Shown here: positions 20,664-23,711 of the stretch, piece by piece
How positions within the stretch are numbered: position 1 is the stretch's first letter
Layout: each line of letters starts with the position of its first letter
Assembly (NCBI GenBank): GCA_902527485.1
Contig: CABZPB010000011.1
Span: forward strand, 1 to 32,671
DNA: 32,671 nucleotides
From: an uncultured Pelagibacteraceae bacterium
GTDB taxonomy: Bacteria > Pseudomonadota > Alphaproteobacteria > Pelagibacterales > Pelagibacteraceae
Reading direction: 5' to 3'
Program-made: the position numbers and the translations under genes
Notes under the pieces: model-generated
What the model was told of the DNA's origin: nothing
The model's input: only the letters and a program-made list of their open reading frames with translations
Database searches by the model: none

Positions 20664-22097
20664 TTAAGAATTTTTGTCTCCAACATATACTGAAACACCT
20701 CTAGAATTAATATCAACATCAAATTTTTTGTGTAAAGGAGGAAAAGCTCTCTGAGAACAGTCTAATCTATCACATGTCCTACATGACACACCTATTGGTA
20801 TTTCTGTGGATTTGTCGTTAATGTTCAAATTTTCTGAGTAAATAAACTCCTTAGCATATTTTGCTTCGCATCCCAGTCCTATCGATAAAATACTTTTCGA
20901 TTGTCCAAATCTTCCAATTCCTTTTTCAACTGTTCTAGCAATACATACGTACTTTTCGCCATTGGACATTTTACTCACTGCAGCTTGAATAACCCCAGGT
21001 CTCGTCAAAGCTGAGTAAACGTTCCAACGTGGACAAGCACCTCCATATCTTGGGATTTCTATTCCAGATAAAGAAAATCTTTTAGAAATATTTCCGGCCA
21101 TATCCACTCTTAAAAAATGAAATGGAATTCCTGGTAATTTTGGATCTTGTAAACAAGTTACTCTATGCGCTACTTGTTCAAAAGAAGTCGCAAAGGTGTT
21201 TTGCAATAATTCTAAATCATATTTTAGCTTTTTACATTCCGCATGAAATAATTTATAGGGCATTAGTATTGCCGCTCCACAGTAATTTAATAATGCAACT
21301 TTAGTCAATTTTTTAGACTCATCGGAAGGAAATTTGAATTTAGTTAAATATTCCTCAATTTCTTTATCAGAACCTTCTTGAGCTATTTGGGCGGCTGCAT
21401 GAAGTTTTTTTGTTTCTAGAGAACTATAGTCACTTAATAAAAGCTCTTTTTTATTTTTTCGATATATCTTAGAAAAAGGTTTTTTTTCCTCTGGAATAAC
21501 ATCTTTTACAGTTATGTCATATTCTGATTTTAAATAATCACATAGAGATATATATCTTGTTCGATTATTTTTTTGAACTTTTTCAAAAACTTTATTTGCA
21601 AAATCTTCTAATTTTGGAAAATAGTTTTTATGTTCTTGTAAAAAATCTGAAATAACTTCGCCTGGAAACGAATTTTTTCTATTATCAACGATCTTACCAG
21701 ATATTGTCTCAATTTTATTGATCATTTCGTGATCTTTCTTTTTTAAAATATCTCCCAATCTTACTATTGCTCTGCCAATTTTAGGATTTGTACCAACAAG
21801 ATCTTTAACTTCTGGGGCTAAAATATCTAAATCTTCAAACAATTTATCATCAAGAATTTCTGACAAAGTATTTTCTAAATTAATGTCAGTTTTTGAGGTT
21901 AATTGAGAAAGCTCAATATTCAGCTTTTCACAAACTTTTAAAAGTAAATCTCCATCTATTTTTCTTTTGCCACCCTCTATTAAGTTTAAATAACTGGGTG
22001 AAATATTTAAATCTTCGGCTAATTTGTTAGCTTGAAGACCTAATTGTCTTCGAAAAGCCTTGATTTTTGGTCCCAATTTTAAATCTAATTGACTCAT
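20664..22097 (-). CDS. ScfR/RamB/PrpR-type transcriptional regulator (XRE HTH + IrrE-like + C-terminal Cys domain)
   Basis: 477 residues. Residues 8-62 are an XRE helix-turn-helix (IKAFRRQLGLQANKLAEDLN...SPSYLNLIEGGKR). A central IrrE-like (DUF955) region near LETKKLHAAAQIAQEGS lacks a clear HExxH zinc motif, as I expect in this family. The C-terminal DUF2083-type domain ends with CRTCDRLDCSQRAFPPL, a conserved Cys cluster. Relatives (RamB, PrpR/Rv1129c, PccR) control acetate, glyoxylate and propionate genes in response to acyl-CoA. Placement divergent from aceA, with a repeat array between, strongly suggests autoregulation and control of isocitrate lyase. Confidence 0.9.
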   Translation of the reverse strand: MSQLDLKLGPKIKAFRRQLGLQANKLAEDLNISPSYLNLIEGGKRKIDGDLLLKVCEKLNIELSQLTSKTDINLENTLSEILDDKLFEDLDILAPEVKDLVGTNPKIGRAIVRLGDILKKKDHEMINKIETISGKIVDNRKNSFPGEVISDFLQEHKNYFPKLEDFANKVFEKVQKNNRTRYISLCDYLKSEYDITVKDVIPEEKKPFSKIYRKNKKELLLSDYSSLETKKLHAAAQIAQEGSDKEIEEYLTKFKFPSDESKKLTKVALLNYCGAAILMPYKLFHAECKKLKYDLELLQNTFATSFEQVAHRVTCLQDPKLPGIPFHFLRVDMAGNISKRFSLSGIEIPRYGGACPRWNVYSALTRPGVIQAAVSKMSNGEKYVCIARTVEKGIGRFGQSKSILSIGLGCEAKYAKEFIYSENLNINDKSTEIPIGVSCRTCDRLDCSQRAFPPLHKKFDVDINSRGVSVYVGDKNS

Positions 22098-22104
22098 ATT
22101 TTCT

Positions 22105-22207
22105 ATTTGTAAATTTTGTAAATTTATTTTTACAAAATTTTTCTATGATTTACAAGCCTTTTTAACTTTTAAGTAGATTTTGTAAATTTTGTAAATTATA
22201 AGATTTA
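22105..22207. promoter_or_regulatory. Array of TTTGTAAA sites between the regulator and aceA side (putative operator)
   Basis: TTTGTAAATTTTGTAAA, a 9 bp-spaced pair of TTTGTAAA, occurs twice: at 22106-22122 and 22179-22195. Reverse copies follow at 22129-22136 (TTTACAAA) and 22149-22156 (TTTACAAG), and a partial TTTACAT overlaps the small ORF start. The consensus differs by one base from TTTGCAAA, the core reported for ScfR-family regulators such as PccR and PrpR. One cluster abuts the regulator start and the other the small ORF start, a layout for divergent control. Confidence 0.75.
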
Positions 22208-22208
22208 C

Positions 22209-22370
22209 ATGGAAGAAAAATTAAAAAACACTGAAAAAGAAGCTCAAATCATCAGACATGAAGATCTAGCTAGACACAATAGCAGAGGGATCTACATGCG
22301 AGATGACCATTGTGACTGGGGTTCTAGTGGAATGAACGATTTAACTGAGACACTTACAGAGTCAAACTAA
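22209..22370 (+). CDS. 53-residue unrecognised ORF upstream of aceA
   Basis: Missed by the track. ATG is at 22209 and TAA at 22368-22370. The sequence contains IIRHEDLARHNSRGIYMRDD and ends in an acidic, Thr/Ser-rich tail; there is one Cys in HCDWGSSGMND. It is hydrophilic without a signal or membrane helix, and its composition (several Asp, His, Arg, Trp) is unlike random AT-rich sequence, which supports coding. It starts directly after the second TTTGTAAA cluster and ends 63 bp before aceA. It has no obvious Shine-Dalgarno, so a leaderless start is possible. I do not recognise a family. Confidence 0.65.
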   Translation: MEEKLKNTEKEAQIIRHEDLARHNSRGIYMRDDHCDWGSSGMNDLTETLTESN

Positions 22371-22433
22371 ATCTTATAACTTCTACTAAATTTCATTTTT
22401 CAATAATAGCTTTTAAAACCAAAGGAAACGACA

Positions 22434-23711
22434 ATGAGTGCTGAAAATATCTCATACGATTTAAAAAGATTTGCAGGGATTAAAAGAGATTATACTCCAG
22501 AAGAAGTTGAAAGACTTAGAGGTTCTATTAAAATTGAATATTCAATTTGTAAACAACAATCCATAAAACTGTGGAAATTGTTAAATACTGAAAATTATGT
22601 AAATACTCTTGGGTCCCTGTCAGGCAACCATGCAGTCCAACATGCAAAAGCTGGTTTAAAAGCAATTTATTTAAGTGGTTGGCAGGTGGCTGCTGATGCT
22701 AACAGTGCAGGAGAAATGTATCCTGATCAATCTTTATATCCTTATGATAGCGCTCCGAAATTAGTAGAGTCTATGAATAATGCATTAATTAGAGCTGATC
22801 AAATCCAACATATGGAATTAAAAGATGGCGATATGAAAAAAGAAAAAAGAATTGATTATATGCTTCCAATTATAGCTGACGGTGAGGCAGGATTTGGTGG
22901 ACCTCTAAATGTATTTGAGCTCGCAAAAAAATTTATTAAAGCGGGTGCTGCTGGCGTTCATTTTGAAGATCAACTGGCGAGTGAAAAAAAATGTGGGCAT
23001 ATGGGTGGTAAAGTACTAGTTCCAACAGGTACGATGATTAAAAACTTAAAAGCTGCTAGGTTAGCAGCTGATATTGCAGATGTTCCTTTGATTATTTTAG
23101 CAAGAACAGATGCTAATGCTGCTAAATTAATTACAAATGATTTTGATGAAAATGATAAACCTTTCTTAACTGGAGAAAGATCTCCAGAAGGTTTCTATTA
23201 TGTAAAAGCTGGTATAGAACAAGCAATATCAAGAGGTCTTGCTTACGCACCCTACTCAGATTTAATTTGGTGTGAAACAGCAACACCAAATCTTGAAGAG
23301 GCCAAAAAATTTGCTGATGCAATTCATGAGAAATTTCCTGGAAAACTTTTAGCTTATAATTGTTCTCCATCGTTTAATTGGAAAAAACATTTATCGGATG
23401 AAGAAATAGCATCATTTCAACAAAAAATTAGCCAAATGGGTTATAAATTTCAATTTATTACACTAGCAGGATTTCATACTCAAAACATTGCTATTTTTGA
23501 ATTAGCAGAAAAATATAAAAAAGAAGGTATGGCTGCATACTCAAAAATTCAACAACTAGAATTTGCTCGTGAAAAAGATGGGTATACAAGCGTAAAACAT
23601 CAAAGAGAAGTTGGTACATCTTATTTTGACGCGGTGTCAAATACAATAAGTAGTGGTAAAAGTGCGACTACGGCAATGGAGGGCTCAACAGAGTCAGAGC
23701 AATTTCAATAA
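22434..23711 (+). CDS. aceA: Isocitrate lyase
   Basis: 425 residues, close to the 434 of E. coli AceA. The catalytic loop is KKCGHMGGK with Cys187. Metal and substrate segments [18 protein letters not shown] and ARTDANAA are intact, and [13 protein letters not shown] is conserved. It splits isocitrate to glyoxylate and succinate, the first step of the glyoxylate bypass. AAAGGAAAC, 5-8 bp before the ATG, is a good ribosome site. It is probably co-transcribed with the 53-residue ORF and controlled by the divergent ScfR-type regulator. No malate synthase gene is in the window. Confidence 0.98.

Follow-up and report, generated by a model that had tools for sequence, protein, structure and literature searches.

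A short conserved gene between an ScfR/RamB-type regulator and isocitrate lyase in SAR11 bacteria, probably an accessory of the glyoxylate shunt

The short ORF that precedes aceA in an uncultured Pelagibacteraceae bacterium (assembly GCA_902527485.1) is almost certainly a genuine protein-coding gene; with scfR on one side and aceA on the other it makes up a self-contained three-gene cassette (Table 1). The window analysed is the stretch of 32,671 nucleotides at positions 1 to 32,671 of contig CABZPB010000011.1. The small gene encodes a previously undescribed protein that probably serves the glyoxylate shunt as a dedicated helper or regulator. The original prediction of an undescribed 53-residue ORF between the operator and isocitrate lyase holds to its exact position on the + strand: the protein matches no family and is conserved in SAR11.

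Table 1. Features of the scfR/small-gene/aceA locus (positions in the window)
Feature	Position	Strand	Support
Small protein gene, 53 aa (MEEKLKNTEKEAQIIRHEDLARHNSRGIYMRDDHCDWGSSGMNDLTETLTESN)	22209..22370	+	Conservation in hundreds of SAR11 genomes, dN/dS 0.13
Invariant core, residues 27-42, GIYMRDDHCDWGSSGM	22287..22334	+	dN/dS 0.007; DDxxDWGxxG retained in sister genera
Paired operator TTTGTAAATTTTGTAAA ahead of the small gene	22179..22195	+	Zero expected by chance
Paired operator and inverted half-site ahead of the divergent regulator	22106..22136	+	
TTATAA box, likely -10 element, 7 nt before the small-gene ATG	22196..22201	+	
AGGA, Shine-Dalgarno-like site of aceA	22423..22426	+	AGG/GGA in 176/202 loci
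Divergent ScfR/RamB-type regulator (HTH, M78 and ScfRs domains)	20664..22097	-	PF09856, E 1.2e-58
aceA, isocitrate lyase	22434..23711	+	NF011645, E 4.3e-218, above cut-off

The ORF has 53 codons plus a stop. Its ATG lies 13 nt past the second of the paired TTTGTAAA sites (22179-22195), and a gap of 63 nt separates its end from the aceA start (22434). The region is AT-rich with many spurious ORFs, which reach 79 aa, so that the length of the small ORF alone is no proof of a gene. These properties and the lack of a family match would suit a chance reading frame without product, but this view is refuted by conservation and retains practically no credibility. Relatives are found in 26 of 61 related genomes, every one in the same genus, in 72 of 197 family genomes at E<=10 (the weakest few being chance matches; about 67 at E<0.01) and on 521 contigs of the GTDB genome set. 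Across 107 distinct ungapped relatives the whole gene has a dN of 0.095 and a dS of 0.73 (ratio 0.131), to be compared with a dN/dS of 0.055 for aceA at the same loci. The ratio drops to 0.007 in the core formed by residues 27-42 (dN 0.004, dS 0.57), which is invariant across several genera. The original prediction looked to conservation and to the balance of synonymous and nonsynonymous change for its check, and these values bear it out as regards the gene; it named absence or frame disruption in close relatives as fatal, and not one of the 107 relatives has the frame interrupted, each of the remaining five frames carrying stops in 107/107. Such a low core ratio at a dS of 0.57 indicates selection on amino acids, not on RNA. 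Synonymous sites drift freely along the gene, core included, the RNA fold of the region is unremarkable (z -0.84), and neither an Rfam match nor a terminator was found. A structured RNA or riboswitch was rejected on the absent Rfam match and the unremarkable fold.

Within the window's genus the core has the consensus G(I/V)Y(L/M/I)RDDHCDWGSSG(M/I). Sister genera have G-x-Y/F-x-x-[DE]D-x-x-DWG[SGN][SAG]G, in the versions GLYVNDDDQDWGSAGM, GVYVREDDQDWGSSGM or GLFINEDNQDWGSSGL. Only M1, G27, D33, D36, W37, G38 and G41 are fully invariant in a diverse set of 21 members. A metal site using H34 and C35 was rejected, since sister genera have D and Q instead. At the N-terminus 20-30 residues vary and are rich in Asn, Lys, Glu and Gln, and a variable tail, 8-13 residues long, comes after the core. 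Structure prediction, run on a shallow alignment of close relatives only, is uninformative (pLDDT 56, pTM 0.17, one short helix). Variable termini around an invariant core, combined with low pLDDT and pTM, are what one would expect of a disordered polypeptide that docks through a single motif, and we infer that the small protein is most likely such a polypeptide, disordered for the most part. Scanning of 21 diverse members gave no Pfam or NCBIfam family above the curated cut-off (best E 0.03), and the PDB profile search gave no significant match, its best hit, YTHDC2 (E 0.57), being rejected as a 12-residue chance match. Kinship with the C-terminus of succinate dehydrogenase/aspartate oxidase was also rejected: the likeness to PF02910 (succinate dehydrogenase flavoprotein C-terminus) is a chance-level SRGxxxRDD, with an E-value of 0.066, below cut-off, in one of 21 members.

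The gene divergent from the small gene codes for a protein with PF09856 (ScfRs), PF01381 (HTH_3) and PF06114 (Peptidase_M78) domains, all above cut-off, that stays under the NCBIfam RamB equivalog cut-off (361 of 700 bits). Isocitrate lyase lies directly downstream of the small gene in 207/207 fetched loci and the divergent regulator upstream in 202/207. Three of the other five loci end before the regulator, one has an apparently frameshifted regulator and one lacks it. The frameshift, in locus L087, seems to lie near a T run, some 590-640 nt ahead of the small gene, and could be a sequencing error of this single-cell genome.

Genome-wide sampling of the order extends the linkage. Among 147 genomes, many of them incomplete assemblies and related to each other so that co-occurrence counts are not independent, aceA is present in 70 and the small gene in 68, all of them aceA carriers; a match in G096 (E 0.997) was taken as chance and left out. 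Short and conserved, the small protein is thus linked genetically to a single enzyme (207/207 loci, 68/68 carriers). In G228, one of the two aceA carriers without it, the contig stops 108 nt upstream of aceA and the small gene cannot be judged. The other, G065, retains scfR and aceA with a different small ORF of 78 aa in the small gene's place, related to a second small ORF found between the small gene and aceA in genus g12. Genera g8 and g12 both have this second ORF (L253:3318-3554; L180, L181) in the interval from operator to aceA; their versions share an NIESNCVS motif and are 45% identical across 45 residues. In g8 it is the sole small ORF there, and its stop codon overlaps the start of aceA. 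The regulator is likewise missing from 19 of the 20 good genomes without aceA, and the remaining one has only a fragment of it. Regulator, small gene and aceA are gained or lost as a cassette, and the patchy isocitrate lyase of subclade IIIa, in which malate synthase is common (PMC10030771), agrees with such loss.

The word "inserted", used of the ORF in the original prediction, proves apt in an evolutionary sense. A divergent ScfR homologue accompanies most of 28 other alphaproteobacterial aceA loci and none has a related small ORF in between; class-level searches returned nothing but chance matches outside the family. The small gene was therefore added, in SAR11, to a pairing of regulator and enzyme that is older. 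A phage origin was rejected, viral contigs holding no relative. The ScfR/RamB-controlled glyoxylate loci of Alphaproteobacteria, for example that of Paracoccus denitrificans (PMC10370305), resemble that of SAR11 in their divergent ScfR-type gene, paired boxes and glyoxylate genes downstream, but no small gene is described in between, and the Paracoccus operon includes malate synthase. The Paracoccus boxes are two, 18 bp apart (PMC10370305), whereas the operator of many relatives (window 22170-22195) reads as three direct repeats with a 9-bp period, TTTTGTAGA-TTTTGTAAA-TTTTGTAAA.

The paired operator is essentially unique to the scfR/small-gene/aceA locus. Not one was obtained in 100 shuffles of the window, and the two at the locus are the only exact pairs in the window's own assembly (69% complete). 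Exact pairs in ten other Pelagibacter genomes (97-100% complete) occur only at the aceA locus, bar one site in one genome, and one-mismatch sites elsewhere in these genomes are about as common as a reversed-pattern control. One such paired site with a mismatch, TTTGGAAAATTTGTAAA, recurs away from aceA in G095, G012, G103, G063 and G077 and may lie in a coding gene.

Among 135 distinct upstream regions from the window's genus, each base of the TTATAA box, at -13 to -8, is retained in 93-100%, the ATG lies 13 nt from the operator in 128, and a Shine-Dalgarno-like triplet precedes the small gene in only 2. No match to the sigma-70 consensus was found on the + strand in a simple scan. A likely -10 box standing at a fixed distance just before the ATG, with the Shine-Dalgarno missing, suggests a leaderless mRNA that may start at the small gene itself in this genus. 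In g12 and g15, which are more distant genera, the small gene is preceded by a normal site of the AGGAG type.

The strain HTCC1062 offers some expression background. Its aceA is SAR11_1240, and transcripts of SAR11_1240 and SAR11_1242 rise about 1.6-fold under iron limitation (P 0.09 and 0.05; PMC2864753). SAR11_1242, assigned by position as the regulator, is also up in light in starved cells (PMC3090418). The skipped locus number SAR11_1241 is probably the small gene; our literature search for SAR11_1241 of HTCC1062 found no mention of it.

The original prediction also proposed an accessory protein of the glyoxylate bypass. The strict co-occurrence with aceA fits this part of the proposal; an influence on isocitrate lyase, regulatory or enzymatic, is presumed. 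We tentatively favour a scheme in which the small gene and aceA, judging from their position, would be co-transcribed from the operator-controlled promoter, the former perhaps translated from a leaderless start and the latter from its own ribosome-binding site. Each time the shunt is turned on, the invariant 16-residue core would then dock onto isocitrate lyase, or onto a different enzyme at the isocitrate branch point, and alter how active, how stable or how well assembled that enzyme is. That the small protein docks on and tunes such an enzyme is a serious possibility, somewhat short of an even chance. No member of the AceK family was detected in 21 genomes (0/21), the E. coli positive control being detected, and the isocitrate branch point consequently needs some other control. 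The small protein could be the replacement for AceK-type control: AceK (isocitrate dehydrogenase kinase/phosphatase) is likewise a shunt accessory and would address the same branch-point problem, but it is a large, unrelated enzyme. The wider proposal, that a SAR11-specific small protein directly controls isocitrate lyase or the branch point in place of AceK and so sets the share of carbon that goes to respiration and to the glyoxylate shunt, is also a real possibility, if a slightly lesser one.

Small proteins that bind metabolic enzymes in cyanobacteria, among them AcnSP on aconitase, the glutamine synthetase inactivating factors and CP12 (PMC7760959), provide a precedent by analogy. AcnSP has 44 aa and CP12, described as intrinsically disordered, 74 aa (PMC7760959). 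Like the SAR11 protein they are small and tied to an enzyme of central metabolism, AcnSP acting one step upstream of isocitrate. No family match exists between the two groups, and the SAR11 gene, unlike the cyanobacterial ones, is placed in the operon of its putative target.

Linkage to aceA leads us to propose isocitrate lyase as partner, and linkage fits the regulator too, except in one genome, G094 (78% complete). There the small gene and aceA (locus L177) are relocated beside a tRNA gene, the operator is decayed (TTTAAAATATAGTTAA), and neither the regulator nor an exact paired operator was found in about 1 Mb of assembly, nearly all of it; the small protein retains its core. If G094 is no assembly artefact, the small protein is worth keeping with isocitrate lyase without the regulator, which points to the enzyme as partner. 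A co-factor or anti-factor that is produced from the regulated promoter and binds the ScfR/RamB regulator, so that its own operon is subject to feedback, would account for the regulator divergently adjoining the small gene at nearly all loci, for the joint absence of regulator and small gene from aceA-negative genomes and for the clustering of paired operators at the locus. It does not account for G094, and elsewhere in Alphaproteobacteria the regulator works without the small protein, the RamB of Paracoccus responding directly to CoA esters (PMC10370305); moreover the regulator has diverged to about 60% and the core has hardly changed. On the grounds of G094 and of a RamB that responds to CoA esters on its own, partnership with the regulator is less likely than with an enzyme, and we hold it to be unlikely. 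Isocitrate lyase itself can work without the small protein in G065, where another small ORF possibly serves it, and in other Alphaproteobacteria it is managed without one.

Action on a different branch-point enzyme when isocitrate lyase is induced, for example inhibition of isocitrate dehydrogenase or tuning of malate synthase GlcB, would answer the need to set the isocitrate partition without AceK. It would also suit the post-translational control of the HTCC1062 glyoxylate shunt, with its variable GlcB phosphorylation (PMC13198564). The small gene however tracks aceA, and malate synthase is reported to be common in SAR11 even in the absence of isocitrate lyase (PMC10030771), which makes this target rather unlikely. 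A cis-acting leader peptide, whose translation would control aceA through stalling or coupling with no role in trans, is suggested by the small size, the position between promoter and aceA and the fixed operator-start distance, as well as by small ORFs upstream of aceA in g15 and g8 that end within the aceA start. Against it, selection bears on mid-protein residues that are followed by the variable tail, the spacer to aceA ranges from 25 to 205 nt, and a second small ORF intervenes in g12; the absence of terminator and Rfam match, the ordinary fold and the free synonymous drift of the core are not those of a leader either. Mid-protein selection and the variable distance to aceA render a leader role less likely than partnership with an enzyme and, in our view, quite improbable.

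SAR11 bacteria are some of the commonest cells in the sea, and they retain the small gene only together with isocitrate lyase. If the favoured docking on this enzyme is true, small-protein control of a central enzyme would exist outside cyanobacteria, and ocean carbon flux would have, in a dedicated small protein that accompanies isocitrate lyase, a control point so far unrecognised.
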